Origin: Microbacterium croceum | GTDB lineage: Bacteria > Actinomycetota > Actinomycetes > Actinomycetales > Microbacteriaceae | Assembly: GCF_023091245.1 (NCBI RefSeq) | Contig: NZ_JAHWXN010000001.1 | Location: 558,001 to 622,000 of the forward strand | Direction: 5' to 3' | Length of the DNA stretch: 64,000 nucleotides | Shown here: piece after piece, positions 13,588-46,386 of the stretch | How the letters are laid out: the number at the start of each line of letters is the position of its first letter | Numbering within the stretch: the stretch's first letter is position 1 | Notes under the pieces: model-generated | Database searches by the model: none | What the model was told of the DNA's origin: nothing | Seen by the model: only the letters and a program-made list of their open reading frames with translations | Made by a program: the position numbers and the translations under genes

Positions 13588-13609
13588 GGGCTCGTCACAC
13601 TCCCGCAGA

Positions 13610-28571: not shown

Positions 28572-28603
28572 TCCACAGGTGTTAACAACTCTGTTAACAA
28601 CTC
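28572..28603. repeat. oriC-like GTTAAC element A
   Basis: TCCACAG followed by a perfect 12-base tandem: on the minus strand GAGTTGTTAACA occurs twice in a row (28580-28603). The first GTTAAC begins exactly three bases after CCACA, as in oriC. The element is between a plus-strand gene (MocR, ends 28539) and a minus-strand gene (ends 28636). Confidence 0.6.
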
Positions 28604-28635
28604 CGAGGGGCGTGGAAGAGGCGAGAGTCGCCGAG

Positions 28636-28947
28636 TCATCCTGCCGAAGATGAGCGCGGCAGCCGACGGATTCGGGCGTTGTGCACCGCGATCGCGACCA
28701 GCGCGACGCCCGGACCCGCCACCACGATCGCGAGCGCCCACCATACGGAGGTCTGGCCGACCAATACGGCGCCCAGGACGGTCAGACCGGCACCGAGCGC
28801 GCGCATGGCCACCGAACCGTGGGGTTGTGTCGCGGGCCGCGTCCCATACGGAATCCGGACGTCGCGGTTCGCGCGCAGGGTGGCCAGAAGAGCTGCAAGG
28901 AACAGGACCACTCCGGCGAGAGCGGTCGCGATGCCGAAGACGTTCAT
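28636..28947 (-). CDS. Small membrane protein of unknown function
   Basis: 103 residues from the ATG at 28947. One hydrophobic helix at the N-terminus (VFGIATALAGVVLFLAALLA), then a polar loop and two close hydrophobic stretches (about residues 50-90), with a basic tail (NARIRRLPRSS). No family recognised. The frame is open further upstream, but that part is the shadow of the next gene. Alone between two regulator genes. Confidence 0.6.
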   Translation of the reverse strand: MNVFGIATALAGVVLFLAALLATLRANRDVRIPYGTRPATQPHGSVAMRALGAGLTVLGAVLVGQTSVWWALAIVVAGPGVALVAIAVHNARIRRLPRSSSAG

Positions 28948-29053
28948 GCGCTCGACGGTATCAACCGCACCGGCTCGACGCGAGACGCGGTCGGGGCCTG
29001 AACGGCTGGGAGCACCTGGCCGCGAGCCAGGTGTACGGCGTCGAGGGAGGAGC

Positions 29054-29881
29054 CTACGTTCTCGCGGCGGCGAACCGCTCCTTGGTATCGGCATCCGCGA
29101 CGTAGACGACGAGCTGGATCTCGGTCTGGTCCGAGGGGCGCAGCTGGTGGTGCTCGAAGACCAGTCGTCCGAGCTCCGGATGCTGGAACACCCGCTCGCG
29201 GGACTGGAATCCGCGGATGTCGTGGCTCTCCCAGCGCTCCCGGAACTCCGGGCTCGCCTCCACCAGGCGCGAGACGAGGTCGCGGTAGCGGGGGTCTCCC
29301 AGGCGGGGGCCGGCCTCGGCGCGGAACTCGGCCAGGAAGCGGCGACTCGTGACATCCCAGTCGTCGAGCAGCGAGCGCACATACGGATCGGTGAAGATCA
29401 GCCACAGCAGGTTGCGCTGTTCGGGCGGGGTCTGCGCCACGTTGGGGTACAGAGCCTCGTAGGCCGCATTCCACCCGGCGACGCCCCAGTCGGGCGCGAG
29501 AGCGTACGCCGGATGCTCATCGAGCGCGTCGAGGAACCGCTGCACGTGGGCGGGCGCGGTCTCGACGGCCGCTCCTCCGCCCGGGCGTGCGGGGGCGAAA
29601 CCGGCGAGCGTCAGCACGTAGTCGTGTTCCGTGACCGTGAGGTGCAGTGTGGTGGCGACGGCATCCAGCACCTGGCGGGAGGGGTTGATGTCGCGTCCCT
29701 GTTCGAGCCAGGTGTACCAGGTGACGCTGACGCCGGAGAGGTAGGAGATCTCCTCGCGGCGCAGGCCGACCGTGCGGCCGCGTCCGGCGGGAGGGAGCCC
29801 GAAGGCGGCGCGATCGAGGTGCTCGCGGCGGGCGCGCAGGAAGGCGCCGAGTTCCCTCCGCTGTTGCTCGTCGCTCGCCAT
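29054..29881 (-). CDS. XRE-family regulator with MmyB-like ligand domain
   Basis: 275 residues. The N-terminal helix-turn-helix (about 10-80) contains GLRREEISYLSGVSVTWYTWLEQGRDI, a hallmark of this MmyB/MltR-type family. The C-terminal domain (about 105-270) matches the MmyB-like ligand-binding fold (PDWGVAGWNAAYEALYP and HPELGRLVFEHHQL). Members usually repress a neighbouring gene and respond to a small molecule. Divergent from ilvD with 77 bases between; whether it controls ilvD is inference. Confidence 0.88.
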   Translation of the reverse strand: MASDEQQRRELGAFLRARREHLDRAAFGLPPAGRGRTVGLRREEISYLSGVSVTWYTWLEQGRDINPSRQVLDAVATTLHLTVTEHDYVLTLAGFAPARPGGGAAVETAPAHVQRFLDALDEHPAYALAPDWGVAGWNAAYEALYPNVAQTPPEQRNLLWLIFTDPYVRSLLDDWDVTSRRFLAEFRAEAGPRLGDPRYRDLVSRLVEASPEFRERWESHDIRGFQSRERVFQHPELGRLVFEHHQLRPSDQTEIQLVVYVADADTKERFAAART

Positions 29882-29892
29882 GGATACAAACC

Positions 29893-29906
29893 TAGTGCTC
29901 TCACTA
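29893..29906. promoter_or_regulatory. Candidate operator of the MmyB-type regulator
   Basis: TAGTGCTCTCACTA: perfect 5-base arms around CTCT, 11 bases upstream of the regulator start. A further CTAGTG lies directly next to it. Probable autoregulatory site. Confidence 0.5.
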
Positions 29907-29958
29907 CTAGTGTCAGCGCCGTCTTCCTTCGAGTGCGGGCAGGCGCCAGGGTGGAAGA

Positions 29959-31863
29959 ATGCCCACCCCTCTTCGCTCCCGTACCGTCACGCACGGCCGC
30001 AACGCCGCAGGAGCCCGTGCCCTGTTCCGCGCTGCCGGCGTCAACCCCGCCGACTTCGGCAAGCCGATGATCGCCGTCGCGAACAGCTTCACCGAGTTCG
30101 TCCCCGGTCACACCCACCTGCAGCCCGTCGGGCGCATCGTCTCCGACGCGATCTCCGCCGCGGGCGGCATCCCGCGTGAGTTCAACACGATCGCGGTCGA
30201 CGACGGCATCGCGATGGGCCACGGCGGGATGCTGTACTCGCTCCCCTCGCGCGACCTGATCGCCGACTCCGTCGAGTACATGGTCAATGCGCACCAGGCC
30301 GACGCGCTGGTCTGCATCTCGAACTGCGACAAGATCACCCCCGGCATGCTCATGGCCGCGCTGCGCCTGAACATCCCGACCGTCTTCGTCTCGGGCGGCC
30401 CGATGGAGGCTGGTCGCGCGACTCTGGTCGACGGCTCCGTGCGCACGCTCGACCTGGTCGACGCCATCTCCGAAGCCGCGAACGACACCGTCTCGGATGC
30501 CGACATGAAGCGCATCGAGGAGAACGCCTGCCCGACCTGCGGCTCGTGCTCCGGCATGTTCACCGCGAACTCGATGAACTGCCTCGTGGAGGCGCTCGGC
30601 CTCGCCCTGCCGGGCAACGGCTCGGTGCTCGCCACCCACACCGCCCGCCGCGCGCTGTACGAGAAGGCCGGTGAGGTCGCGGTCGAGATCACCCGCCGCT
30701 TCTACGAGGACGACGACGCCTCGGTGCTGCCACGTGAGGTCGCGAGCTTCGCGGCGTTCGAGAACGCCATGGCGCTCGACATCGCGATGGGCGGATCGAC
30801 CAACACGATCCTGCACCTGCTCGCCGCGGCCCACGAGGCCGGCATCAGCTTCGGTCTCGACGAGATCGACGCGGTCTCGCGCCGCGTGCCCTGCCTCGCG
30901 AAGATCGCGCCGAACCCGGCCTCGGGCCGTATGTACTACATGGAGGATGTGCATCGCGCCGGCGGCATCCCCGCAGTCCTCGGCGAGCTGCGCCGCGGCA
31001 ACCTGCTCGACGAGAACGTCAGCACCATCCACTCCCCCTCGTTCGCTGCCTGGCTGGACGACTGGGACATCCGCGGGGGCAAGGCGACGGATGCCGCGAT
31101 GGACCTCTGGTATGCGGCCCCCGGCGGGGTGCGCTCGTCGAGCGCGTTCTCGCAGTCCGAGCGCTGGGCGGCCCTGGATGAGGATGCCGCGACCGGCTGC
31201 ATCCGCGATGTCGAGCATGCCTACTCGGTCGACGGCGGTCTCGCCGTGCTCCGCGGCAACCTCGCTGTCGACGGCGCCGTGGTGAAGACCGCCGGCGTCG
31301 ACCCCTCGATCCTGGTGTTCTCCGGTCCCGCCGTGGTGTGCGAGTCGCAGGAGGAGGCGGTGGCGAAGATCCTCGGCAAGAAGGTGCAGCCGGGCGACGT
31401 GGTCGTCATCCGCTACGAAGGCCCCCAGGGCGGCCCCGGTATGCAGGAGATGCTGCACCCGACCTCGTTCCTCAAGGGTCGTGGGCTCGGCAAGGTGTGC
31501 GCCCTCATCACGGACGGCCGCTTCTCTGGCGGCACGTCGGGGCTGTCGATCGGCCATGTCTCCCCCGAAGCGGCCGCCGGCGGCGTGATCGCCCTGGTGC
31601 AGGACGGCGACATCATCGACATCGACATCCCTTCGCGCTCCATGTCGCTGCAGGTCAGCGAGGCCGAGCTCGAGGAGCGCCGTGCCCGCCTGCTCGAGGG
31701 CACCGGCTATCAGCCCGTCGACCGTGCCCGGCCGGTGTCGCTGGCGCTGCGGGCGTATGCGGCGATGGCGACCTCGGCCGACCGCGGTGCCGTGCGCGAC
31801 GTCGAGAAGGTCGAGCGCGCCCTGCGGGCGCAGGAGCTGCAGAGCGCTGCCGCTCTCGTCTGA
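29959..31863 (+). CDS. ilvD: Dihydroxy-acid dehydratase
   Basis: Iron-sulfur enzyme that dehydrates 2,3-dihydroxy acids in branched-chain amino acid synthesis. 634 residues. Cluster and metal ligands are seen as [10 protein letters not shown] and [29 protein letters not shown] and [21 protein letters not shown] are conserved. The size and the long middle section fit the E. coli-type [4Fe-4S] class. The ATG at 29959 ([20 protein letters not shown]) matches the usual N-terminus. It stands alone rather than in an ilv operon; convergent with the XRE-cupin gene. Confidence 0.95.
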
Positions 31864-31877
31864 CCGACCCTGCTCGC

Positions 31878-31935
31878 TGAGGGGTCGCAACACGCCGCGA
31901 GTACGCGCGGGCGCACGGCGTGTTGTGACCCCTCA
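31878..31935. repeat. Convergent-junction inverted repeat, copy 1
   Basis: 20-base arms at 31878-31897 and 31916-31935 match at 19 of 20 positions, with an 18-base centre. The right arm contains the stop codon of the minus-strand XRE-cupin gene. Copies 2 and 3 are at 33549 and 40954. Confidence 0.85.
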
Positions 31936-32520
31936 CGTGGGTGAGGTTGGAAGCGTGCGGGTGACCGGGCGCTCGCCGTCCGGGACGAAGAGGTGCAGGA
32001 TCTCGACCGCCAGCTGATCGGCCGGCCCGAACCAGTGCGGGAGTGAGGAGTCGAACTCGACCTGCTCCCCCGGTTCGAGCAGGTGCTCCTCGCGTCCGAT
32101 GACCAGCCGCAGGTGTCCGGCGAGCACGTGGATCCAGGCATGACCCCGGTGGCTCGCCAAGACGGGCTCCCGTGGCCCCAGCACGTGCTTGAACGCCTGC
32201 ACACGGCCGGGGTGCTGGGTCAGCGGCACGGCGACTCCGCCCGTGCCGAGTCGCTGCGGTTCGAGGTTCACCCGTGGATCCCCGGTCTCGGGTGCCCCGA
32301 TGATCCGGTCCAGTGAGACGGCGAAGGCGCGGGCGAGGGGGATCAGCGCGTCCAGCGTCGGCTGCCGGTGTCCGGTCTCGATCCGCGACAGCGCGCTCAC
32401 CGAGAGGCCGGAGAGCGCTGCGACCTCGGCCAGGGTCAGCTGTCGTGCCGAGCGCAGCCGTCGCAGCCGGGGGCCGATCGCTTCCAGCACGGCGGCGGTA
32501 TCGGCATCCATGCTCGCCAT
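31933..32520 (-). CDS. XRE-family regulator with C-terminal cupin domain
   Basis: 195 residues. The N-terminal helix-turn-helix (residues 15-70) has LTLAEVAALSGLSVSALSRIETGHRQPTL. The C-terminal ~100 residues form a small cupin barrel (HRGHAWIHVLAGHLRLVIG, then EPGEQVEFDSSLPHWF). Such regulators commonly bind a small metabolite and repress themselves. It is divergent from a small oxidoreductase gene, and a near-palindrome lies at its start codon. Confidence 0.88.
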   Translation of the reverse strand: MASMDADTAAVLEAIGPRLRRLRSARQLTLAEVAALSGLSVSALSRIETGHRQPTLDALIPLARAFAVSLDRIIGAPETGDPRVNLEPQRLGTGGVAVPLTQHPGRVQAFKHVLGPREPVLASHRGHAWIHVLAGHLRLVIGREEHLLEPGEQVEFDSSLPHWFGPADQLAVEILHLFVPDGERPVTRTLPTSPT

Positions 32521-32521
32521 C

Positions 32522-32538
32522 TTTGCAGAATCCGCAAA
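32522..32538. promoter_or_regulatory. Candidate operator of the XRE-cupin regulator
   Basis: TTTGCAGAATCCGCAAA, 17 bases, arms match at 7 of 8 positions. It begins two bases upstream of the start codon of the XRE-cupin gene, so binding would block its own expression and possibly the divergent gene's. Confidence 0.55.
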
Positions 32539-32616
32539 CGAGCTGGATGTCGACGGCTCCGTGGTTCGACGATGGAGTCCGCTCGCGACGCACGCGGGGC
32601 GGGAAGGAGCTGCATC

Positions 32617-32655
32617 ATGACCGTACGACGTTCCTCCTCTGCGAGCACCCGATGA
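32617..32655 (+). CDS. Putative 12-residue upstream peptide
   Basis: ATG with a strong Shine-Dalgarno (gaagga, 8 bases upstream) encodes MTVRRSSSASTR and stops at TGA, which overlaps the ATG of the next gene (ATGA). The downstream gene has no good Shine-Dalgarno of its own, so translational coupling through this peptide is plausible. Confidence 0.45.
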   Translation: MTVRRSSSASTR

Positions 32656-33551
32656 GGGCGCTGCTGCTGGGCGCCCGCGGCGCGGTCGGCACCGTGATCC
32701 GGCGCGAGCTCGAGCGAGCCGATCACACCGTGACTGCGGCCAGTCGCGCTGAGGCGGGCGGGGTGCGTATCGACCTGCGCGGAGACCTCGCGCCTCTGGC
32801 CGCTCTCGCTGGCGAGCATGACGTGGTGATCAACGCCTCCGGCATCGAGCGTCCTGAGCTCGCGACCGCGACAGCGCGCACACCCCTGGTCGACATCTCG
32901 GCAACCGGGAGCTATCTCGCCGCGCTCCGGGATGCCGCGCGCGGACTCGTGGTGCTCGGTGCCGGGCTCGCCCCCGGACTGACGACGGTGCTCGCCGCTG
33001 CGCTCGACACGCGTCCGCGCGACCAGATCGACGTGCTCGTGATGCTCGGCAGCGGGGAGAAGCACGGGCCCGCCGCTGTCGCCTGGACGGCGGGCCTCGT
33101 CGGCACCGACATCCACCTGCCGCCGGACGCCGGGAAGGTGCGCAACTTCCGCACGAGCGTGCGTGCCGAGGGTCCGGACGGTCGCACCAGGCGCTATCTG
33201 CGGGCGGACTTCCCCGACCACATCCTGCTGGCACCGACCGGGTCGCCCGTCATCCGCTCGTACCTCACACTGGGCTCGGCGGCGATGACGGCATCCCTCG
33301 ATCTGGTCGGACGCCTGCCCGCCCTGCGCGGGGTGCTCTCGATCGCCCCGCATGTCGGCGGCGAAGACTGGCATGTGGTCGCTCGCAATCGTCGCACGGG
33401 CGAGCGTCGACAGGCTGCCGGCTCGGGTCAGTCCGAGGCGACCGGCCGGCTCACCGCCCTCGCCGCCGTCCGCATCGCCGGCTCCACGCGCGGCACGGCC
33501 ACGATGGCCGACCTGGTCTCGGCCGACGAGGTCGAGGCTGTACTGGCGTGA
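32652..33551 (+). CDS. NAD(P)-binding Rossmann-fold oxidoreductase (saccharopine dehydrogenase-like)
   Basis: 299 residues. It opens with a nucleotide-binding motif (LLLGARGAVGTVI) and continues with VVINASGIERPEL and VVLGAGLAPGLTTVLAAAL, a pattern seen in short saccharopine-dehydrogenase-like proteins. The C-terminal half resembles the catalytic/dimer part (SYLTLGSAAMTASLDLV). Substrate unknown. Its stop codon lies inside repeat copy 2. The divergent XRE-cupin regulator is the likely controller. Confidence 0.7.
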   Translation: MRALLLGARGAVGTVIRRELERADHTVTAASRAEAGGVRIDLRGDLAPLAALAGEHDVVINASGIERPELATATARTPLVDISATGSYLAALRDAARGLVVLGAGLAPGLTTVLAAALDTRPRDQIDVLVMLGSGEKHGPAAVAWTAGLVGTDIHLPPDAGKVRNFRTSVRAEGPDGRTRRYLRADFPDHILLAPTGSPVIRSYLTLGSAAMTASLDLVGRLPALRGVLSIAPHVGGEDWHVVARNRRTGERRQAAGSGQSEATGRLTALAAVRIAGSTRGTATMADLVSADEVEAVLA

Positions 33552-33606
33552 GGGGTCAAGACACGCCGCGCCAGAGCTCCTTTCCACGGCGTGTTCTGAC
33601 TCCTCA
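33549..33606. repeat. Convergent-junction inverted repeat, copy 2
   Basis: 20-base arms at 33549-33568 and 33587-33606 match at 17 of 20. The left arm contains the TGA of the oxidoreductase gene. It lies between this plus-strand gene and the minus-strand lacI-type gene. Confidence 0.85.
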
Positions 33607-33636
33607 CGCGGGAGAGTTCGAGTCGACCGGACGGGA

Positions 33637-34665
33637 TCAGATCGTCGAACCGGGGTGCGTGGCCGTCGAGCGTCGGGGGATGAGCTGCATCGGGATCACG
33701 ACGCTCTCGTACGCGCGCGTGCGATCGCTCAGGCGGGCGACAGCGAGGCGAGCGGCCTGACGGCCCAGTGCCTCGACGTCGCCGGTGACGACGCTGATGC
33801 CGAGTACCTGCGCCCACTCCGGCTCGTCGAAGCCGATCACTGCGGGTGAGGCCTCGGGGTGCTCGGCGATCTCCTCCATCACACCGAGGAGGATGCGGTT
33901 GTTCCCCGCGACCACCGCGGTCGGCGGGGTCTCCAGCGCGAGCAGGTCACGCATGCACTCCCGCGACGATGGCACGTCGTGCGCGTCGGTGCGCAGCAGC
34001 TCTCGCCACCCCGAGCTGTGACCGTCGAGCACGTCGCCCATGCCGGCGAGGCGCTGGCGATACGTGGGCAGCCAGGCGTAGTCGCCGATGAAGGCGATGC
34101 GGTGGTGGCCGGCGTCGATCAGGTGCCGGGCGGCCAGGCGTCCCCCCTCGCGGTTGTCGAAGACGACCGAGTCCGCGTCGAGGTTCTCGGCCGGACGGTC
34201 GACGAAGACCACGGGGATGCCGCGGGCCTGCAGTTGCGCGTAGTCGGAGTGGTCGGTCATGGCGGAGACCGTGATCACGGCCTTGGTCTGGCGGTCGGCG
34301 AGGTCGTGGGCGACGCGCTGCTCCTGCTCGGCGGACTCTCGGGAGTTCGCGACCGAGAGGTGCATGCCGCGGGGACGGATCTCGTCTTCGATGGCCTGTG
34401 CGAGCGCGGAGTAGAACGGGTTGGTGAAGTCTCCGGTGATCAGTCCGATCGACTCGGCGAGGCGTCCGCTGGCCAGCAGGCTCGCGGCGGCGTTGCGCTG
34501 ATAGTCGAGCTCGGCGGCGGCGGCCAGCACGCTGGCGAGCGTCTTCGCGCTCACGTACGACTCGCCGCCGAGGGCTCGGGATGCCGTCTTCAAACTGACG
34601 CCCGCGCGGGCGGCGACCTGCGCGAGCGTCGGCCGCGGCGTCGCCTCGTCGTCTGTGCGTGTCAT
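33637..34665 (-). CDS. LacI-family transcriptional regulator
   Basis: 342 residues from the ATG at 34665. The DNA-binding headpiece (about 13-60) shows LAQVAARAGVSLKTASRALGG and ends in a hinge-helix sequence (AASLLASGRLAESIGLI). A periplasmic-binding-like sugar domain follows, with FTNPFYSALAQAIEDE and RPAENLDADSVVFDN. A palindrome of LacI type is upstream of the divergent GH92 gene, so this is probably its local repressor, responding to a sugar from mannoside breakdown. Confidence 0.92.
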   Translation of the reverse strand: MTRTDDEATPRPTLAQVAARAGVSLKTASRALGGESYVSAKTLASVLAAAAELDYQRNAAASLLASGRLAESIGLITGDFTNPFYSALAQAIEDEIRPRGMHLSVANSRESAEQEQRVAHDLADRQTKAVITVSAMTDHSDYAQLQARGIPVVFVDRPAENLDADSVVFDNREGGRLAARHLIDAGHHRIAFIGDYAWLPTYRQRLAGMGDVLDGHSSGWRELLRTDAHDVPSSRECMRDLLALETPPTAVVAGNNRILLGVMEEIAEHPEASPAVIGFDEPEWAQVLGISVVTGDVEALGRQAARLAVARLSDRTRAYESVVIPMQLIPRRSTATHPGSTI

Positions 34666-34766
34666 GCGTCCCCCTCGCCCGCCGGGGGCGGATAGCTCAT
34701 TATCGCGGTCGGTCGCTGCGAGATGCACCTTCCCTGCACGACGAACGCTGTGGTAGCGTCCTCATC

Positions 34767-34786
34767 ATATGACAGCGATGTCATAT
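34767..34786. promoter_or_regulatory. LacI-type operator upstream of the GH92 gene
   Basis: ATATGACAGCGATGTCATAT: perfect 8-base arms with a central CG step, typical of LacI-family operators. It lies 71 bases before the GH92 ATG and 102 bases from the regulator start, where it could govern both. A possible -10 (tagcgt) sits immediately upstream at 34754. Confidence 0.8.
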
Positions 34787-34856
34787 CGTCACGCGGTCTC
34801 ATCGGGAGACCCGCGGCAGACGGACGACACACAGCAGTGGAGTTTGAGGAGCAACC

Positions 34857-37800: not shown

Positions 37801-40800
37801 ACGAGGCTCGGGAGGCGCGCGACGTGCGCCTGGGCATGCTCGGTATGTCGAACCAGATCGCGCACCACATCCCCTACGTGCTCGCCGAGGCGGGCGACCC
37901 CTCCGGAGCGCAGGAGCTGATCCGCGACATCCAGGACCGTCTCTTCGTGGGTTCCGACATCGGCCAGGGCTACCCGGGCGATGAGGACAACGGCGAGTTC
38001 TCGGCCTGGTACGTGTTCTCGGCCCTCGGCTTCTACCCGCTCGAGGTGGGATCGGGGAATTACACCATCGGCACGCCGCTGTTCGACAGCGCGACGCTCT
38101 CGATCGGTGACACGGACCTGGTCATCAACGCTCCAGGAGCGTCGACGGGCAAGGACTACGTCGCCGGGGTCAGCGTCAACGGCACGGCCATCGACTCCAC
38201 CACGTTCGACGGAGACCTGGTGCGCGAGGGAGGAACTCTCGACTTCACGATGAGCGCTGAGCCGTCCGCGTGGGGTGCCAAGGACCTCGGCGAGAAGCTG
38301 GAGGTTCCCACCACGCTGGTCGACGCCACGAAGGTCGGCCGCGGCACGCTCACGGCCACCGACGGAACGCCCGTCGGCTCGCTGGCCGACGACAACATGA
38401 ACTCCAAGGTCACGTTCGCGGGCGACTCGACCGAGCTGGTGTGGACCTCGCAGTCCGGACCGGTCTCGATCGGGCAGTACACGCTGACCAGTGCCGCGAA
38501 GGCGGATGCCCCGTCGAGCTGGACGCTGGAGGGATCGGTCGACGGCACGACGTGGACCGAGATCGACAGCCGCGAGGGCGAGACGTTCACCTGGGACACC
38601 CAGACCCGGCCGTTCACGGCTCAGAACGCGGATGGCTTCACGAGCGTGAAGCTCACGCTGACGTCGAAGAGCGAGGCGCTGTCGCTGTCGGAGGTCGAGC
38701 TGTTCGCCTCGGCGTCGGATGCCGACGGACTCCAGATCTCTGCCGGCGCCCCGCAGCGGGTGAAGGTCGACACCGAGTTCACCGGTTCGCTCGCGACGAT
38801 CGTCGGCACCGAGACGGAGGCCTCCGGCTACACCGTCACGGTCGACTACGGCGACGACACCGAGGTGACCGACGTGAAGCTGGTGCGCGACGACCTGGGC
38901 GGCTGGAAGGTGAGCGCACCGCACACCTTCACGGCTCCCGGCACCTACTCGGCCGGCATCACGGTGCGCGACTCGAGCGGCGCGGTGGCCCAGACCACCG
39001 CGACCGTCACGGTCTACCGTGATGAGACGCTGGTCGGTGCCTTCAACAACGTCTGCATCGGCGACCTGGGCGTCACCGCGGCCAACTGCGATTCGCAGGG
39101 TCACGGCTACTACCGCGACAAGCTCGCCGCGGACGGGTTCGTGCAGGGCGAGACCCTGACGATCCCGGGCACCGAGCTGACGTACGACCTCCCGGCGGTG
39201 GCTGCGGGTGCGCCCGACAACATCACCGGCGAGGGTCAGACCGTGCGTCTGTCGCTCGGCGTCGGTGCCACGCAGCTCTCCTTCGTCGGAACGGCGACCG
39301 AGAGCAACCGCGATTCGCAGGCCGTGCTGCACTTCACCGACGGCAGCACGCAGACGGTGACGATCAGCCTGGGCGACTGGGTCGGAGCGTCCGGCAACCC
39401 GTACAAGCAGAACACCGTGCTGACGATCTCGGAGGGCCGTCTCTCCGGAACGGGGGCGGAATCGGGAGGAGCCAAGAACACGGCGATCTTCGCGACCGCG
39501 CCGATCACGCTCGATGTCGATGACAAGGGCGCGCCCAAGATCGTCGAGTCGCTGACGATGCCGAAGGAGCCGGGTTCGTTGAACGACGGACGCGTGCACA
39601 TCTTCGCCATCGGCTCCGACGGCGACCGCTCGGCCGCCGCACCGCTGAACGTCGAGGCCGGCACCGTATCGGGTCAGATCGCCGGCGAGGCGTTCGACGC
39701 GACGCTCGCCACGGTCACCGGCGGTGCCGGAGACAGCACCGCGATCGTCAACTGGGGTGACGGTTCTCCCGTCACCGCGGTCGAGGTCGAAGACGGCGCC
39801 GTCGCCGCAGACCACACCTACGCCACGGCGGGTACCTTCACGGTGACCGTCACGGCGGACGACGGTGTGCAGTCGGCGGAGGCGACGCTCGAGATCGCGG
39901 TCGAGGAGCCGGAACCCGAGTACGCCCCGGAGATCGCGGCACCCGACGAGGCGCACCCTGGCGACGCGGTCGAGATCACCGGCACCGGCTTCGCCCCCGG
40001 CGAGAACGTGTCGATCCGCATCGACGACGAGGAGCCGGTGGTCGTGAAGGCCGATGACGACGGCGCGATCCGCGGCGACATCGTGGTGCCCGCGTATGCG
40101 GTGGACGGCGATCACCCCGTGGTGGCGCTGGGCGACGTCTCGAACGTCGAAGCCCGGACGTCACTCCGGGTCACCGCCGAGACCTCGGCCCCGGAGAGCA
40201 CCTCGGTGGCCCTGGCCGCGGGCTCGGACGATCCCGTCGCCGGAGAATCGGTCGCACTCACCGCGACGGTCACCCCGGCCGACGCGGCGGGCAAGGTCGA
40301 CTTCTTCGAGGGTGACACCGTGGTCGGTTCGGCCACCGTCACTGCGGGTACCGCGACCGCCGACGTGCTGATCGCGACCTCGGGTACGCACACCTTCGTG
40401 GCACGGTTCGTGCCGTCCGACCCGGAGGCCTACCGCGGCTCCGAGTCGGCACCGCTCACGCTCGAGGTCCGCGGCACTCCGGTGCTGGAGGCCGAGATCG
40501 TGATCGGGGCGAAGAGCGTGGTGCAGGGCGGTAGCGTCGAGGTCATCGGTCGTGGCTTCGCCTCGGGCGAGAGCGTCTCCTTGACGCTGCACTCCGACCC
40601 GATCAGCCTCGGAGAGGTCACGGCGGACGGCACCGGAGCGTTCCGGGTGCAGGTGACCGTGCCGGCATCCGCTCCGGTGGGCGATCACACGCTCATCGCG
40701 CAAGGCGCTGACTCCGGTCTGAGCGCCGAGGGTGCGCTGCGCGTGACCGCGGCGGCATCCGGTGGCGGCGACGGACTGGCCGGGACGGGCGGAGCGATCC

Positions 40801-40883
40801 CCCTGACGCTCATCAGCCTGCTGCTGGTCCTGCTGGCCGCCGGTGGCGTGCTCGTCCTCCGACGGCGCCGCGTGGAGTCCTGA
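34857..40883 (+). CDS. Cell-wall-anchored GH92 alpha-mannosidase with accessory domains
   Basis: 2008 residues. An N-terminal signal peptide (RRSWAAAGIAVTVSLAML, cut near ASA) is followed by an F5/8C-like carbohydrate-binding domain (about 50-215), a beta-rich module (220-395), the GH92 core (about 400-1140) with FWDTYRTAWPLYSLLYPD and GDEDNGEFSAWYVFSALGFYP, another F5/8C-like domain (1145-1285), a PKD-type domain (1290-1385), an NPCBM-like region, and PKD and Ig-like repeats. The C-terminus reads LAGTG, a hydrophobic helix and RRRRVES, a sortase signal of the class E type. It should act outside the cell on mannose-containing glycans. Linkage specificity cannot be read. Start supported by gaggag. 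Confidence 0.93.
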   Translation: MRVPSPRNARPARRSWAAAGIAVTVSLAMLTPVQASAAAGSTFASSFESADAAPALTGTGNAINVTGSQFAPGSVLGGVTAVTASAQNTPNEGAAFVADGNASSKWLAFTNKAWVQYQLAQPQPMVRYTLTSGNDEPDRDPKDFRVQGSNNGTDWVTVDERSGELFSGRGETRTFTLATPSEAYTYYRLDVLATKTPSKNIVQLAGWEPIAVDGATPEPADLKLQIGNGPTSSDTAKTGVGFTGTKALQYTGRHLAAGPASSTSVLYDDVDLAVADDSELSYLVFPVLDGEQTYAATFVAVDLTFDDGTSLSTSGAVDSYGYGANARQQGQANVLWPNQWNKVTVDLGQFAGRTVDDILFTYDHPGTDVTGVEVPTGDTAFSGWLDDVAIGAAEELDTTDGLVSYVDTRRGTNSTGGFSRGNNLPATAWPNGFNFITPMTNADNVGTIYQYQRANNAQNLPALNGIGFSHQPSIWMGDRNQIAVLPAANANPTSSLNDRKLTFHHENETARPDIYGVEFDNGINTEVTATDHGAIYRFEFTGDASSVLIDQLVNSSKLTISGDTVSGWVDGGSGYPGRTRMFVYGTFDREPTASGATTRGDRNGTARYAAFDTTTDRTVELRLSSSFISQDQAKANHGFELEGVSFDRAHKAVRDAWNERLGVVHDVKGASDTQLVTLYSSLYRLNLYPNSQFENTGTATKPVYKYASPVSATSGSATDTQTNAKIVDGKIYVNNGFWDTYRTAWPLYSLLYPDVTEELVDGFVQQYRDGGWVARWSSPGYADLMTGTSSDVAFADAYLAGALSTDTALEAYDAAVKNATVLPESNAVGRKGLGQSIFLGYTEASTHESASWGLEGYINDFGIAEMAKALSEDPKTPSDRVAQLKEEATYFEARAEHYVEMYNPEAGTFTSRNADGSWTSGADFDKKAWGGAFTEASAWTFGFHAPHDVDGLAALYGGRQGLLDVMHDFLTTREKADYSGIHEAREARDVRLGMLGMSNQIAHHIPYVLAEAGDPSGAQELIRDIQDRLFVGSDIGQGYPGDEDNGEFSAWYVFSALGFYPLEVGSGNYTIGTPLFDSATLSIGDTDLVINAPGASTGKDYVAGVSVNGTAIDSTTFDGDLVREGGTLDFTMSAEPSAWGAKDLGEKLEVPTTLVDATKVGRGTLTATDGTPVGSLADDNMNSKVTFAGDSTELVWTSQSGPVSIGQYTLTSAAKADAPSSWTLEGSVDGTTWTEIDSREGETFTWDTQTRPFTAQNADGFTSVKLTLTSKSEALSLSEVELFASASDADGLQISAGAPQRVKVDTEFTGSLATIVGTETEASGYTVTVDYGDDTEVTDVKLVRDDLGGWKVSAPHTFTAPGTYSAGITVRDSSGAVAQTTATVTVYRDETLVGAFNNVCIGDLGVTAANCDSQGHGYYRDKLAADGFVQGETLTIPGTELTYDLPAVAAGAPDNITGEGQTVRLSLGVGATQLSFVGTATESNRDSQAVLHFTDGSTQTVTISLGDWVGASGNPYKQNTVLTISEGRLSGTGAESGGAKNTAIFATAPITLDVDDKGAPKIVESLTMPKEPGSLNDGRVHIFAIGSDGDRSAAAPLNVEAGTVSGQIAGEAFDATLATVTGGAGDSTAIVNWGDGSPVTAVEVEDGAVAADHTYATAGTFTVTVTADDGVQSAEATLEIAVEEPEPEYAPEIAAPDEAHPGDAVEITGTGFAPGENVSIRIDDEEPVVVKADDDGAIRGDIVVPAYAVDGDHPVVALGDVSNVEARTSLRVTAETSAPESTSVALAAGSDDPVAGESVALTATVTPADAAGKVDFFEGDTVVGSATVTAGTATADVLIATSGTHTFVARFVPSDPEAYRGSESAPLTLEVRGTPVLEAEIVIGAKSVVQGGSVEVIGRGFASGESVSLTLHSDPISLGEVTADGTGAFRVQVTVPASAPVGDHTLIAQGADSGLSAEGALRVTAAASGGGDGLAGTGGAIPLTLISLLLVLLAAGGVLVLRRRRVES

Positions 40884-40902
40884 CCCCCAGGGACTCCGAC
40901 CC

Positions 40903-40938
40903 GAGACCGCCCTCCCCATCCCCGGGGAGGGCGGTCTC
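40903..40938 (+). terminator. Terminator of the GH92 gene
   Basis: Perfect 15-base stem gagaccgccctcccc / ggggagggcggtctc around a six-base loop. No T-run, so the strength is uncertain. Confidence 0.75.
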
Positions 40939-40953
40939 GTGTCTCCTCCCTCG

Positions 40954-41011
40954 TGAGGGGTCAAGACACGCCGCGCCCTGGCGTCCGCCTAGGGCGCGTC
41001 GTGACCCCTCA
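40954..41011. repeat. Convergent-junction inverted repeat, copy 3
   Basis: Left arm 40954-40973 is identical to that of copy 2; right arm 40992-41011 is close to its complement. An inner stem (cgcgccct / agggcgcg) extends the dyad. It sits between the GH92 gene and the convergent peptidase gene. Confidence 0.85.
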
Positions 41012-41022
41012 CGCGAGTGAGA

Positions 41023-42138
41023 TCAGACGACGGTGAGCCTGTGCGGCGCGACGTTCAGGCGCTCGCACCCGTCGGCGGTCACGACGACGATGTCCTCGAT
41101 GCGTGCACCCCAGTCGCCGGCGAAATAGATGCCGGGCTCGATGCTGAACGCCATGCCCTCGCGCAGCACCAGATCGTTGCCGGGGGCGATGTACGGCTCC
41201 TCGTGCACCGAGACACCGATGCCGTGACCGGTGCGGTGCAGGAACGCCTCCCCCAGTCCCGCGGCGGAGAGCACGTCACGGGCGGCGGCATCGACCTGTG
41301 CGGCTGTGGCTCCTGGGCGCGCGGCATCGACCGCGGCCTGCTGTGCGCGCACGAGCACCGCGATGCGTTCGGCGGCCTCCGTCGAGGGCTCCCCCACGGC
41401 GTACGTGCGCGTGCTGTCGGAGTTGTAGCCGCTGGGCACCGCGCCCCCGATGTCCACCACGACGACGTCGCCGTCCTGGATCACCCGGTCCGAGACCTCG
41501 TGATGCGGATCCGCGCCGTTCGGACCCGAGCCCACGATCACGAACTCGACCGTGCGGTGTCCTTCGGCCACGATCGCCTCGGCGATGTCCGCGGCCACCT
41601 CGCGCTCGGTCCTGCCCGCCCGCAACAACTCCGGAACGCGCCGGTGCACGGCGTCGATGGCGTCACCGGCACGGCGCAGCTCCGCGATCTCGGCGGCATC
41701 CTTAATCATGCGGCTCTCGCGCAGCACGGGGGTCGCGAGTTCGAGCGTGACGCCCAGCCGCTGCCCGATCGGGATCACATGCAGCGCCGGAAGCGCATCC
41801 GAGACCCCGACGCGCGTCACGGCGCCCAGTGCCTCGGCGACCAGGTCGTAGGCGTTCTCGCCGTCGACCCAGTCCGCGAGGCGCAGGCCGAGTTCGCCGA
41901 CCGCGGTCGAGCGCACCTTCGCCAGCTCCATGCGCGGCACCACGACAGTCGGAGCGAGGCCTGGTCCGAGCACGAGCGCGGTCAGTCGCTCGATCGTGTC
42001 GCCTTCGACGCCCACCAGGTACTGCAGGTCCGGGCCGGGACCGACGATGATCGCGTCGAGTCCGGCATCGGCGGCGAGGGCGGAGGCGCGGTCGAGGCGG
42101 GCGGCGTACACGGCTGAGGAGAAGGGCAGAGTGCTCAC
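41023..42138 (-). CDS. Xaa-Pro peptidase family protein (M24)
   Basis: 371 residues from a GTG at 42138. N-terminal creatinase-like domain (residues 1-130), then a pita-bread catalytic domain. All five metal ligands of M24 peptidases are visible: two Asp in VDIGGAVPSGYNSDSTRTY, His in RTGHGIG, Glu in FSIEPGIY and Glu in ARIEDIVVV. It likely trims proline-containing peptides in the cytoplasm. Frame is open upstream but the homologous part starts about here (STLPFSSAVYAARLDR). The start is not well supported by a Shine-Dalgarno. Confidence 0.88.
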   Translation of the reverse strand: MSTLPFSSAVYAARLDRASALAADAGLDAIIVGPGPDLQYLVGVEGDTIERLTALVLGPGLAPTVVVPRMELAKVRSTAVGELGLRLADWVDGENAYDLVAEALGAVTRVGVSDALPALHVIPIGQRLGVTLELATPVLRESRMIKDAAEIAELRRAGDAIDAVHRRVPELLRAGRTEREVAADIAEAIVAEGHRTVEFVIVGSGPNGADPHHEVSDRVIQDGDVVVVDIGGAVPSGYNSDSTRTYAVGEPSTEAAERIAVLVRAQQAAVDAARPGATAAQVDAAARDVLSAAGLGEAFLHRTGHGIGVSVHEEPYIAPGNDLVLREGMAFSIEPGIYFAGDWGARIEDIVVVTADGCERLNVAPHRLTVV

Positions 42139-42200
42139 GGCGTCCACGCTACTGCGCGCTCTCGCCGGTGTCTCCGCCCTTCTCGTGCCGACCGGTATCG

Positions 42201-42650
42201 TCAGCTGATCGCGAGACGAATGCGCTCTGCGAGCAGCTTTCGGTTCGCAGATGTCAACTCGAGCAGGGCGTACGCCGTCGGCCACATCGTGCCGTCGTCG
42301 AGGTTCGAGATGGGCTCGAAGCCGAAGGTTCCGTAGCGCACTTTGAACTTGCTGGCCGGCTGGAAGAAGCAGAGCACCTTGCCGTCCTTGCCCCAGGCAG
42401 GCATCCCGTAATAGGTGCGCGGCACGAGGTCGGGGGCGACCTCTGTCACCAGCTCGTGCAGCGCGGTGGCGAGCTTCTTGTCGTTGTCGTCGGAGAGCTT
42501 GTCGACGGCGGCCTTGAGGTCGGCTTCACCCTCGGCACGCTGCTCCTCGGGAGTCTTCTTCGCGCGGGACCGCCGGGCCTTGGCCTCCTTGGCCGCTGCC
42601 TGCATGGCCTCGCGCTCTTCGGCACTGAAGTTCTTCTCGTTGTCGGCCAC
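42201..42650 (-). CDS. DUF1801 domain protein (YdhG-like)
   Basis: 149 residues from a GTG with aaaggaac upstream. The N-terminal third is a charged, Lys/Glu/Ala-rich helix; the C-terminal part carries the DUF1801 fold (YYGMPAWGKDGKVLCFFQPASKFKVRYGTFGF). Members related to YdhG/FraA-type iron chaperones share this fold, but function in actinobacteria is not established. Confidence 0.82.
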   Translation of the reverse strand: MADNEKNFSAEEREAMQAAAKEAKARRSRAKKTPEEQRAEGEADLKAAVDKLSDDNDKKLATALHELVTEVAPDLVPRTYYGMPAWGKDGKVLCFFQPASKFKVRYGTFGFEPISNLDDGTMWPTAYALLELTSANRKLLAERIRLAIS

Positions 42651-42797
42651 GGCCGTTCCTTTCGCGATGCGATCTGTGATGCCTTCAGAGTACGGATGCC
42701 GCCGCGCGCCGTGCTTCTCGATTCGTGATCGATCGGAACGGGCTGTGGTCTGACTCACAGACGTCGAGGGCCGGTATCCGGGGCTAGGGTGAAAAGC

Positions 42798-43220
42798 ATG
42801 GACCTGCGTGTCGCGGCATACGCGGTCGTCACGGACGACGACGGCCGGCTGCTGCTCGCGCGCTGGACCGAAGGACGCCGGGTGGCCTGGACGATGCCCG
42901 GTGGTGGGCTCGAACCGGGCGAGCCGCCGGAGGACGCAGTGCGTCGCGAGCTCCGCGAGGAGACGGGCTACAGCGTCAAGGTCGGAGAGCTGCTGGGCGT
43001 GCACTCCCGGGTGATCCCGGCCACACAGCGCGTGCAGAAGGCGGCGGAGCCGTTGCACACCCTGCGCATCGTCTACCGCGCACAGGTGACCGGCGGCAGA
43101 CTGCGGTTCGAGACCGACGGCTCGACCGACATGGCCGAGTGGTTCTCACGCCGGGCGGTCGCCGATCTGCAGCGGGTGAAGCTGGTCGACATCGCCATGC
43201 GGATGGCCGGGATCTACTGA
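42798..43220 (+). CDS. Nudix hydrolase
   Basis: 140 residues. The Nudix box spans about residues 36-58, with GGGLEPGEPPEDAVRRELRE followed by ETGY, keeping the catalytic REXXEE pattern. It hydrolyses nucleoside-diphosphate-linked compounds; the substrate is not evident. I prefer the ATG at 42798 (agggtg upstream) over a GTG nine bases earlier. It converges on the YbaK gene with only four bases between stops. Confidence 0.9.
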   Translation: MDLRVAAYAVVTDDDGRLLLARWTEGRRVAWTMPGGGLEPGEPPEDAVRRELREETGYSVKVGELLGVHSRVIPATQRVQKAAEPLHTLRIVYRAQVTGGRLRFETDGSTDMAEWFSRRAVADLQRVKLVDIAMRMAGIY

Positions 43221-43224
43221 TCGG

Positions 43225-43746
43225 TCAGTCCCGACGCTCCTCCGGAACGGAGATGTCGGCGACTGTGGCGCCGTAGGCGGCGATCAGATCGTCCGCGTCG
43301 ACGAACAGGCTGTAGCCGTGAGCTCCCGCGCCCATGGCGATGCGCTGTCCGACGATCGACTCGTCTGCGTAGATCGGCCAGTCCGTGGTGCTGCCGATGG
43401 GTACGATCGTGCCGCGTTCGTACCCGGTCGCGGCCAGTGCGAGCTCAGGTTCGGGCAGCCGCAGCTTGTTCACGCCGACGAGGGCGCGCAGCTTCGGCCA
43501 CGAGATCGAGCGCCCACCGGGGATGAGAGCGAACAGGTAGGTGTCATCCGCGCGCTTGACGACCAGGGTCTTCACGATGCCGGACGGGTGGATGCCGAGC
43601 AGTTCGGCGGCCTCGAACAGGCTGTTCGCCGCGGGGCGCTCCCGGATGTCGATCGTCAGGCCGCGTGCCGCCGCAGCGTCGCGAACCCGGGCGTGCTGAT
43701 CGCCCCCGTCACCCGAAGGTGCGGAGGCGGGATCAGAGGCGGTCAC
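43225..43746 (-). CDS. YbaK/EbsC-family aminoacyl-tRNA deacylase
   Basis: 173 residues. The editing-domain fold is recognised by HPSGIVKTLVVKRADDTYLFALIPGGRSI (with the catalytic Lys), LRALVGVNKLRLPEP and a conserved GYERGTIVPIG. It likely hydrolyses mischarged tRNA such as Cys- or Ala-tRNAPro. The N-terminal ~15 residues are low-complexity. The start overlaps the stop... of the following minus-strand gene arrangement: its ATG (43746) overlaps the end of the upstream gene at 43743 by four bases, so the two are coupled. Confidence 0.88.
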   Translation of the reverse strand: MTASDPASAPSGDGGDQHARVRDAAAARGLTIDIRERPAANSLFEAAELLGIHPSGIVKTLVVKRADDTYLFALIPGGRSISWPKLRALVGVNKLRLPEPELALAATGYERGTIVPIGSTTDWPIYADESIVGQRIAMGAGAHGYSLFVDADDLIAAYGATVADISVPEERRD

Positions 43747-44243
43747 GCGTCGGGAGCGGACAGCGGGTCATCGGCGACCCAGAGCTCGTCGTCGGCACGA
43801 AGTGCCTGCCATGCCGCGTACAGCACGCCGGCGGCGGCTGCGACACCCAGGATGATCGCGACGACCGAGCCGAGGCCGGGTCCGCTCTTCTGGGGCTTGG
43901 CGGCCTTGCGCACCTGCTTCTCGATGCCGAGGCGCTTGGCGTTCGCGACGTCCCACGCGGTCAGTGCGCTGCCGACGACACCGCCGACGATCGGGACGAC
44001 CTTGTCGTCGACGACGTGCTTGCCGATCTTCACACCACGGTCCACCACCGGGGCGACCCGGCGGTTGTAGGTGTCCTGGACCACGGGCAGCACCTGCTCG
44101 CGACCGAGGCTGCCGAGCTGGCGGCTCGCCTCGCGGGCAACATCGGCGGCGTGTCCGACCAGAACCTGCTGCGACTCCCAGAGCTGGGTCGCGTCGTTCT
44201 GCAGTCGGCGCAGTTCCTTCTTCCGCTTGCGGCTGAGGCTCAC
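43743..44243 (-). CDS. Conserved protein with one C-terminal membrane helix
   Basis: 166 residues from a GTG at 44243 with a strong aggaga Shine-Dalgarno. A basic, coiled N-terminal part (SRKRKKELRRLQNDATQLWESQQ) is followed by amphipathic Val-rich helices (VVDDKVVPIVGGVVG) and a single hydrophobic helix (SVVAIILGVAAAAGVLYAAWQAL) with an acidic tail. I recognise the general type from Microbacteriaceae but no domain. Function unknown. Confidence 0.7.
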   Translation of the reverse strand: MSLSRKRKKELRRLQNDATQLWESQQVLVGHAADVAREASRQLGSLGREQVLPVVQDTYNRRVAPVVDRGVKIGKHVVDDKVVPIVGGVVGSALTAWDVANAKRLGIEKQVRKAAKPQKSGPGLGSVVAIILGVAAAAGVLYAAWQALRADDELWVADDPLSAPDA

Positions 44244-44414
44244 GATGTTCTCCTGTCGATTGGAGGTGCGGGTTCCCCATCTTGCCAGAAGAGGCTGGAT
44301 GCGAGGCGGGAAAACACCTCCCCTTGCCAAGTCGCAGGGTACGCGGTACCTTCTCGTCCCCGTTCGGGAGCGGCAACAAAGCCAACACATGGGAAGCTCT
44401 GCGAGAATGAGGGC

Positions 44415-44972
44415 ATGCCTCACGCCTCTCATGTCGCAACCCTGCACACCAACCACGGTGACATCGTCATCAACCTCTTCGGTGACCACGCCCCGAAGAC
44501 GGTCAAGAACTTCGTCGGCCTCGCCGACGGCACCCAGGAGTGGACGCACCCCGCCACCGGCAAGCCCGGCGAGGGTCCCCTCTACAAGGACGTGGTCTTC
44601 CACCGCATCATCCCGAACTTCATGATCCAGGGCGGCGACCCGCTTGGACAGGGCGTCGGCGGTCCCGGCTACAACTTCGACGACGAGATCAACAACGAGC
44701 TGAACTTCAACGCTCCCTACATCCTCGCGATGGCCAACGCCGGCCTCCGCCGCAACGCCATCACGGGCAAGCCCGAGGGCACCAACGGGTCGCAGTTCTT
44801 CATCACCACCGACCCGACCCCGTGGCTCCAGGGCAAGCACACGATCTTCGGCGAGGTCGCCGATGACGCCTCCAAGGCCGTCGTCGACGCGATCGGTGCC
44901 GTCGCCACCGGCCCGGGTGACCGCCCCATCAAGCCGGTCGTGCTGCACTCGATCGACATCGTCGCGGCCTGA
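44415..44972 (+). CDS. ppiA: Cyclophilin-type peptidyl-prolyl cis-trans isomerase
   Basis: 185 residues, no signal peptide, so cytoplasmic. Key motifs: VVFHRIIPNFMIQGGDPLGQG (catalytic Arg-Phe), NGSQFFITT and the Trp-containing PWLQGKHTIFGEV. Position before crgA matches the gene called ppiA in M. tuberculosis (Rv0009). It speeds proline isomerisation in protein folding. It is followed 21 bases later by the rhomboid gene. Confidence 0.95.
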   Translation: MPHASHVATLHTNHGDIVINLFGDHAPKTVKNFVGLADGTQEWTHPATGKPGEGPLYKDVVFHRIIPNFMIQGGDPLGQGVGGPGYNFDDEINNELNFNAPYILAMANAGLRRNAITGKPEGTNGSQFFITTDPTPWLQGKHTIFGEVADDASKAVVDAIGAVATGPGDRPIKPVVLHSIDIVAA

Positions 44973-44993
44973 CGACAGCTTCGGCCGATCCGG

Positions 44994-45881
44994 ATGTCGA
45001 CGCCTGAGTTCACGAGCAATCGCGACAACTTCTGCTACCGGCATCCGGATCGGCAGAGCTTCGTGCTCTGCCAGCGCTGCCTGCGCACCATCTGCCCGGA
45101 GTGCCAGACGCCGGCACCGGTCGGGGTCATCTGCCCCGAGTGCATGAAGGAGCAGCGCAAGAACCGCACCCCCGCGCAGAAGCGCGCCGAGCGTCGCTGG
45201 GGCGGCGGTGGATCCGTCACCGCGGTGCGCAGTGGCGCGCCGGTCGTCACGTACGCACTGCTCGCGATCACCTCGTTCATCGGGCTGGTGCAGTTGATCC
45301 CGGGCATGGATGGCCCGATCAAAGAGGCGCTCTGGTTCTACGCGCCATACCTCTATCCGAACCTCTTCGCGGTTCCCTTCGAGCCCTGGCGGCTGCTCAC
45401 TGCTCTGTTCGTGCACGGAAGTTTCGTGCACCTGGCGCTGAACATGCTGGCGCTGTGGATGCTGGGTCAGAGCCTCGAGCCGATGCTCGGCCGTGCCCGC
45501 TACCTCGCGCTGTATCTGATCAGCGGCCTGGGCGGCTCCGTCATGGTTGCGCTCATCGCTCCCGGCTCTCCCACGGTGGGAGCATCCGGAGCCATCTTCG
45601 GTCTGATGGCAGCGCTGCTGATCATCGGCCGCCATATCGGTGCGAACGTCACCGGGATCCTCGTGATCCTCGGCATCAACTTCGCCTTCGGTTTCTTCGC
45701 CGGCGGCATCTCCTGGCAGGCGCACCTCGGCGGAGCGATCGTCGGCGCCCTGGTGGCCTTCATCTTCACCAGGACCAAGCGCCGCGAACAGCGGATCTGG
45801 CAGATCGTGCTGCTTGCCGCCACCGCCGTCGCGCTGCTCGTGGTCGTGTTCCTCGTTCCCCCACTGCTTCTTCTGTCCTGA
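44994..45881 (+). CDS. Rhomboid family intramembrane serine protease
   Basis: 295 residues. The N-terminal ~55 contain a Cys/His zinc-finger-like motif (FCYRHPDRQSFVLCQRC and ICPEC repeated). The rhomboid domain follows with about six to seven helices; the catalytic Ser is in GASGAIFG and the His in ISWQAHLGG; HGSFVHLALNMLALW is the conserved first region. It cleaves single-pass membrane proteins; the substrate is unknown. Confidence 0.92.
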   Translation: MSTPEFTSNRDNFCYRHPDRQSFVLCQRCLRTICPECQTPAPVGVICPECMKEQRKNRTPAQKRAERRWGGGGSVTAVRSGAPVVTYALLAITSFIGLVQLIPGMDGPIKEALWFYAPYLYPNLFAVPFEPWRLLTALFVHGSFVHLALNMLALWMLGQSLEPMLGRARYLALYLISGLGGSVMVALIAPGSPTVGASGAIFGLMAALLIIGRHIGANVTGILVILGINFAFGFFAGGISWQAHLGGAIVGALVAFIFTRTKRREQRIWQIVLLAATAVALLVVVFLVPPLLLLS

Positions 45882-45885
45882 TCCC

Positions 45886-45964
45886 GAGTTGTTAACAGGG
45901 TTGTTAACCCCTGTGAATAACACCGGTGTAATTCTCCCCAGGCTGTGGAGAGAACTGTGGATAA
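45886..45964. repeat. oriC-like GTTAAC element B with a DnaA box
   Basis: Two GTTAAC units 12 bases apart (45891 and 45903), then three bases and TGTGAATAA (one mismatch to a DnaA box on the minus strand, 45912-45920). 35 bases further is a perfect DnaA box, TGTGGATAA (45956-45964), in the context TGTGGATAACTTGT shared with oriC at 13699. It lies between convergent genes (rhomboid and crgA). Confidence 0.65.
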
Positions 45965-46003
45965 CTTGTTGAGGGCCTGTGGGGTCCTGGGGAGGGGCAA
46001 AAA

Positions 46004-46036
46004 CGAAGGGCCCCTCGCTGTGCGAGGGGCCCTTCG
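46004..46036 (-). terminator. Terminator of crgA (also faces the rhomboid gene)
   Basis: Perfect 15-base stem with a three-base loop. On the minus strand it is followed by TTTTTG, the classic U-run, so it ends crgA. Confidence 0.92.
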
Positions 46037-46054: not shown

Positions 46055-46294
46055 TCAGCGCCAGCGGGTGGTCATCAGGAAGCCGATCAGGGCGATGCCC
46101 AGGCCGATCGCCAGGTTCCAGTTGTCGAGTCCCGGGATCGGGAACTGCATCCCCGAGATGTAGAACACGAGGATCCACGCCAACCCCAGCAGCATGAAGC
46201 CGATCATCACCGGCTTGAACCAGACGGCGTTCGGAGCCGCCTCGCCCTCGGCGCGCTCGACGACGGGCTCTTCACTCTTGCGCTCTCGTGCCAT
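46055..46294 (-). CDS. crgA: Cell division protein CrgA
   Basis: 79 residues. A charged N-terminus (MARERKSEEPVVERAEG) precedes two transmembrane helices (VMIGFMLLGLAWILVFYIS and LAIGLGIALIGFLM) linked by the PIPGLDNWN loop, the CrgA signature, ending in TTRWR. In Streptomyces and mycobacteria it links FtsZ with the divisome and wall synthases. The open frame extends upstream but the ATG at 46294 gives the family length. Confidence 0.94.
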   Translation of the reverse strand: MARERKSEEPVVERAEGEAAPNAVWFKPVMIGFMLLGLAWILVFYISGMQFPIPGLDNWNLAIGLGIALIGFLMTTRWR

Positions 46295-46386
46295 TCCGTC
46301 ATTGTACCCAAGAGTGCTGTCTCGAATCGATGTCGGTTGCTCCCGCCCTCGGCTTCCGTTCAGCCCGGGGCGATAAGATCGCGCCC

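Follow-up and report, generated by a model that had tools for sequence, protein, structure and literature searches.

The question raised by this locus is what short, oriC-like sites do when they lie outside oriC. To our knowledge, the restraint or timing of DnaA outside oriC in actinomycetes is poorly understood. The DNA analyzed here (the window) is a 64,000-nt stretch of Microbacterium croceum (NCBI RefSeq GCF_023091245.1, NZ_JAHWXN010000001.1 positions 558,001-622,000, forward strand). It contains two ectopic sites, element 1 at 28.6 kb and element 2 at 45.9 kb, which an initial annotation had paired as like, oriC-type elements with a common signature of a DnaA box, 3 bases, and GTTAAC. Element 2 lies 3' of the cell division gene crgA and has counterparts at this place in other genomes (the crgA-side element). 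This element is probably an origin-proximal, cis-acting DnaA control site of actinomycetes, similar to the DnaA-box clusters of Streptomyces and Bacillus. The element is short, and neither its layout nor its place changes between Streptomyces, the window's order, and numerous further families, which makes the question directly testable.

The conserved part of element 2 is a unit of three putative DnaA boxes together with a palindrome 3' of crgA (Table 1), which was absent from the initial description. Including box D, four boxes are present within 53 bp of non-coding DNA outside oriC (45912-45964), and TGTGGATAACTTGT at 45956 is, as had been pointed out, identical to the sequence at 13699 in oriC. 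Within the genus, rhomboid, the gene on the other side of the element, is found in 57/59 genomes, and the region beyond it was examined in 50 of the 57. A 52-nt core could be aligned in 48 of these 50 regions, and 45 loci were used for the core alignment (A1). In the genus alignments the core starts with boxes A and B, set 12-13 bp apart, and continues with box C in inverted orientation and the palindrome; positions T3-T6 and C8-A11 of A1, in box A, are invariant in 45/45 loci. A sequence-only model of the core (R1; matches counted at E 0.01 or better) scores 56.2 bits at element 2, and the next non-overlapping place in the same genome, a WhiB-family promoter, scores 16.1 bits. In the remaining two of the 50 (G004 and G057), in which rhomboid has moved or become separated from crgA, the core is still found at crgA. 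Two genomes with no rhomboid match, G055 (87% complete) and G039 (44% complete), gave weak R1 matches only. The orientation of the core relative to crgA also varies, with 16 of the 48 genus loci facing one way and 32 flipped, which fits a protein-binding site and not a transcript. The sequence, position, box layout, and conservation of the element, and its independence from rhomboid and from orientation, are direct observations.

The element extends well beyond the genus. R1 matches 237/249 genomes (81/85 genera) of the family and 152/198 genomes (63/72 genera) of the order, samples that both include genus members. When 54 matched loci were cut out, rhomboid was present in 52 and crgA in 44, within ~1.5 kb. 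In four genomes of the order (G517:C23, G543:C1, G404:C1, and G530:C1), two R1 matches lie 175-380 bp apart, as if the element had been duplicated. At the level of the class, CrgA (PF06781) was found in 141/148 genomes, and 110 CrgA loci (30 + 80) were examined. In these loci the density of DnaA boxes peaks at 19.6/kb over the 100 bp directly 3' of crgA, falls to 3.9 and 2.6/kb over the following two bins, and is 0-0.74/kb in all other listed bins, beyond 300 bp. A box with no more than one mismatch lies within 300 bp of crgA in 100/107 loci, a perfect box in 71/107, and at least two boxes in 88/107. The layout itself was searched as box A, box B in the same direction 12-13 bp from A, and box C in the opposite direction 22-25 bp from A, with no more than 6 mismatches in total. 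It is present in 92/108 crgA 3' regions versus 0/634 control windows from the same class loci. Outside the window's order it is found in 87/102 regions, and the commonest spacing is 13 and 23 (59 loci). Among the best 80 of 549 candidate loci from Streptomyces and Kitasatospora, all 80 contain two to four perfect boxes within 320 nt 3' of crgA, and there are no perfect boxes in the other bins of ±3 kb.

Table 1. Features of the oriC module, element 1, element 2, and the genes beside element 2 (window coordinates)
Feature	Position	Strand	Basis or remark
oriC module: tandem DnaA boxes, GCT, GTTAACACTGTTAAGGAGTTAACCCAGTTAAGG	13878..13931	+	sequence; CCACA-N3-GTTAACA in 30/30 genus oriCs
Element 1: CCACA-GGT-GTTAAC-N6-GTTAAC	28573..28598	+	sequence; 12-bp direct repeat TGTTAACAACTC twice, 28580-28603
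Element 2, conserved 52-nt core: DnaA boxes A, B, C and palindrome	45915..45966	-	alignment A1; R1 56.2 bits
DnaA box A (putative), TTATCCACA, perfect	45956..45964	-	box search; A1 invariance
DnaA box B (putative), CTCTCCACA, 2 mismatches	45944..45952	-	same direction as A, 12 bp start to start
DnaA box C (putative), TTCTCCCCA, 2 mismatches	45932..45940	+	inverted, 24 bp from A
Palindrome TAACACCGGTGTAA (TNACACNNGTGTNA), putative operator	45918..45931	.	2 exact genome places, the other a WhiB-family promoter
DnaA box D (putative), TTATTCACA	45912..45920	-	overlaps palindrome; found in part of genus
Accessory tail GTTAAC-N6-GTTAAC	45891..45908	-	starts 3 bases after box D
Rhomboid-family protease gene, convergent neighbor	44994..45881	+	Pfam PF01694
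crgA, cell division protein gene, convergent neighbor, start codon provisional	46055..46312	-	Pfam PF06781
Intrinsic-terminator-like hairpin of crgA, between crgA and element 2	46004..46036	-	

Within 404 kb around oriC, element 2 is the single match to the three-box layout; the other DnaA-box clusters in this region are oriC itself and the clusters upstream of dnaA and of dnaB. The distance from the crgA end to dnaN is 11.1-34.1 kb in 17 genus genomes, and 15 of the 17 dnaN-crgA intervals (12-33 kb) contain no strict DnaA box outside the crgA-side element and oriC. In the window, TTWTNCACA occurs 8 times versus 0.19 expected, a count reached by 0/100 shuffles. DnaA-box clusters close to oriC were reported for Streptomyces coelicolor by Smulczyk-Krawczyszyn (2006) and for Bacillus subtilis by Okumura (2012). 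Since two to four perfect boxes are found 3' of crgA in Streptomyces, the same site may already be among the published clusters of S. coelicolor (named H69, H24, and D78). These clusters, like the crgA-side element, are non-coding groups of DnaA boxes near oriC; however, they have been described for single species, whereas the crgA-side element, of putative function, is set apart by its position 3' of crgA, its three-box layout, and the adjoining palindrome, all conserved through the class. A literature search limited to open-licence papers turned up no description of a DnaA-box cluster linked to crgA, nor of three boxes kept there in a fixed layout throughout the class.

How such a site might act can be sketched as follows. 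The site lies close to crgA, at a constant distance on its 3' side and some 10-35 kb from oriC. A small DnaA complex would form there on boxes A and B, a direct pair with close spacing, and on the inverted box C. Replication would reach the site shortly after initiation at oriC, and the doubled site would then take up or reset DnaA and so discourage re-initiation, an action of the kind proposed for the clusters of S. coelicolor and B. subtilis. We infer the binding of DnaA, the sign and mechanism of control, and the existence of a second protein. The A and B boxes of the element are 3-4 bp apart, and E. coli DnaA, as described in an excerpt of PMC11317965, has a preference for paired boxes with 2-3 bp between them. 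According to an excerpt of PMC12371093, a location near oriC is favorable for titration by DnaA boxes, and the oriC-close clusters of S. coelicolor and B. subtilis have been reported to repress untimely initiation (cited in excerpts of PMC4585315, PMC5742627, and PMC13220808).

The orientation of the boxes makes a reactivating site of the DARS type the main rival. Here, A and B facing one way and C facing the other would hold ADP-DnaA head to head, release ADP, and promote initiation. An excerpt of PMC5742627 gives box I opposed to boxes II and III as a prominent DARS feature, with the same spacing at both DARS. Box order and orientation in the crgA-side element are the same as in the E. coli DARS1 and DARS2 cores (box spacing read from the K-12 sequence), three boxes with one opposed, as is the A-B distance of 12 bp in the window. 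However, the B-C distance is 14 bp in DARS1 and DARS2 versus 12 in the window and mostly 10 across the class, and the A-C distance is 26 versus 24 and mostly 23. The DARS spacing of 12 and 14 compares with 12 and 12 in the window and mostly 13 and 10 in the class, and DARS1 and DARS2 occupy other chromosomal positions. We regard a DARS-like role as unlikely. The element can also be compared with E. coli datA, another early-replicated DnaA-box cluster outside oriC, which lies downstream of the tRNA operon glyVXY, much as element 1 lies downstream of a tRNA in relatives. In datA, however, the essential boxes face one direction and are accompanied by an IHF site (excerpt of PMC5742627), whereas box C of element 2 is opposed. 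For element 2, no other kind of explanation does better than the earlier proposal of a DnaA-titrating or reactivating site; the two elements are not equivalent.

Next to the boxes lies the palindrome, which we take for the operator of a putative second regulator. In the 3.68-Mb genome, TNACACNNGTGTNA occurs exactly at two places (reversed control, 1): element 2 and position 1986331, where a WhiB-family gene starts 48 bp downstream. Of seven palindrome loci examined in genus genomes, six share this arrangement, with the palindrome in the promoter region of a WhiB-family gene, and the seventh (L369) has no WhiB signature. Across the class the palindrome is present in 44/109 crgA element regions and 0/637 controls. 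An exact copy occurs in 75/100 family genomes, and the reversed control is above zero in many. Thus, a clean two-site regulon across the family was rejected, and the link to WhiB is claimed for this genome and the six genus loci. In the scheme above, the palindrome would be bound by a second protein that also controls the WhiB-family gene. BldD was considered as this protein: its box is TNAC(N)5GTNA and whiB is a BldD target in Streptomyces (excerpt of PMC4151990). The palindrome contains similar TNAC...GTNA half-sites, but these are separated by N6 instead of N5, and BldD was therefore rejected. A half-site like GTGTAGTTCC, resembling half of this palindrome, recurs in genus oriCs (L114-L143), ~25-60 nt before the DnaA-box pair.

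The palindrome also raises the possibility that element 2 chiefly serves transcription: DnaA and the palindrome binder would keep transcription from reading through from rhomboid or crgA into the facing gene, or else the boxes would be secondary to a palindrome that acts as an operator. The placement of element 2 between convergent genes and the recurrence of the palindrome in WhiB-family promoter regions are consistent with this. However, no promoter-like site was seen near element 2, crgA has its own hairpin terminator, the element stays in place without rhomboid and flips its orientation, and the box layout is better kept than the palindrome (92/108 versus 44/109). That element 2 is chiefly a device for transcription control or termination seems quite improbable. 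The shared palindrome nevertheless hints at a regulator that may tie replication to division. In a more ambitious and distinctly tentative version of the DnaA control site, the locus beside crgA would be ancient and class-wide, combining a DARS-oriented three-box complex with an operator shared, as an exact copy in this genome, only with a WhiB-family promoter; it would couple initiation to division and stand in for the enterobacterial DnaA-cycle loci.

The signature from which the initial annotation started behaves differently from the core. Its parts are all where they had been placed. In oriC, CCACA (13891-13895) is followed by 3 bases, GTTAAC (13899-13904), and more GTTAA units. Element 1 consists of CCACA (28573-28577), GGT, and GTTAAC at 28581-28586 and 28593-28598, and the minus strand of element 2 reads TTATTCACA (45920-45912), GGG, and GTTAAC at 45908-45903 and 45896-45891. 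The second GTTAAC does lie 12 bases on when counted start to start, and in box D of element 2 the CCACA is represented by TCACA, a 1-mismatch match. Both elements are situated between convergent open reading frames, as described (ends 28539/28636 and 45881/46055). GTTAAC, the HpaI site, is indeed rare by expectation, with 1.26 expected in the window and 6 seen, a number reached by 0/100 shuffles; the excess of CCACA-N3-GTTAAC (no more than 2 mismatches) is mild (9 versus 4.4 expected; reached by 2/100 shuffles). Enrichment near the origin and conservation in relatives had been named as tests of the idea, and both came out positive. The exact GTTAAC-N6-GTTAAC pattern occurs at two places only in the genome, at distances of 15 and 32 kb from oriC. 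When up to 2 mismatches are allowed, 13 looser places are added, making 15, whereas the reversed control gives 3. The exact pattern is present in 42/149 genus genomes (reversed control 0/149), the core recurs in the family and order, and the box layout recurs at crgA loci of the class.

However, CCACA-N3-GTTAACA is found in 30/30 genus oriCs examined (drawn from 56 dnaN loci; none with the reversed control) and in 2/10 oriCs of other genera of the family, whereas box-N3-GTTAAC is present in 13/48 genus crgA elements and the full GTTAAC pair in 11/48. Box-N3-GTTAAC is therefore a genus oriC motif, common to part of the ectopic sites, and was dropped as the core signature of the ectopic element. 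It may have been added to the crgA-side element in part of the genus, and a second copy, element 1, may have arisen in some species near tRNA-Ala. Among 29 further genus loci with the GTTAAC pair (L016-L044), crgA lies beside 21 and rhomboid beside one more, at a contig end. Of the 7 located elsewhere, 5 contain the CCACA-N3 part and directly follow tRNA-Ala on its 3' side; L028 and L044 have neither feature. Thus, there are two motif classes, at crgA and at tRNA-Ala, corresponding to elements 2 and 1. Of the 17 genus dnaN-crgA intervals, 3 contain element 1, and its type lies 3' of tRNA-Ala in five relatives and 2.9 kb beyond tRNA-Ala in the window. The two elements are alike in being ectopic, box-adjacent, and close to the origin, but they are not equivalent: element 1 is a copy that occurs sporadically, in most cases 3' of tRNA-Ala, and does not have the weight of element 2.

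The module also bears on whether element 2 might be an auxiliary or second origin, at which DnaA would open the DNA at the GTTAAC tail as at oriC. Two observations favor such an origin: the module is shared with all of the genus oriCs examined, and in three genomes (G000, G005, and G022) the cumulative GC-skew minimum is separated from the crgA end by 1.9-2.0 kb but from dnaN by 28-34 kb. However, the tail is restricted to the 13 genus elements mentioned above, and there is no helicase-loading gene or dnaA copy at element 2. Furthermore, the basal unwinding system (BUS) of oriC described in an excerpt of PMC8287927 resembles these sites in its tandem DnaA boxes, short GC-containing spacer, and AT-rich unit, but its rule of at least three 3'-NAN-5' DnaA-trios within 16 bp of a DnaA box holds at none of oriC (13600-14082), element 1, and element 2, and holds in 5/132 background windows. 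The suggestion of an auxiliary unwinding element is thus left without support beyond the resemblance to oriC. The GC skew was convincing at first in three sister genomes and then mixed in 17, and it was therefore not used as support for a second origin, which we consider very improbable.

Several points weigh against a DnaA control site. Among the 17 genomes, 9 have their GC-skew minimum no more than 2.3 kb away from the crgA end, 4 have it no more than 1 kb away from dnaN, and 4 have it elsewhere, in a comparison in which 11 of the 17 contigs begin at dnaA and only one side is seen. GC skew thus does not single out oriC, and a control site leaves this pattern unexplained. In addition, 16/108 class regions do not have the three-box layout and 36/107 have no perfect box, and the layout search was tuned after the geometry had been seen in the same loci, although the controls remained at 0/634. 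The sequence evidence does not tell DnaA titration, activation, and inactivation apart, and the element may have a transcriptional role, for example as a roadblock between the convergent genes.

Other features of the region were also noted. GC skew in the window is flat or negative between dnaN and crgA (13900-46000), though leading strand is expected there, and the mean skew of this interval is at or below 0 in 12/17 genomes. An Rfam scan of the window at gathering score matched three tRNAs only and no RNA family at the elements, and element 2 was therefore rejected as a known RNA. Two perfect DnaA boxes lie upstream of dnaA (12017-12125), where autoregulation is likely. A DnaA-box cluster upstream of dnaB (Pfam DnaB, DnaB_C), with 3 boxes of no more than one mismatch (G000:C1:490161-490247; L343:12161-12247), suggests DnaA control of dnaB. 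Finally, a parS-like palindrome, TGTTTCACGTGAAACA, is present at 7135-7151 of the window, and a weaker one lies at ~8206-8223, near a lone DnaA box at 8138.

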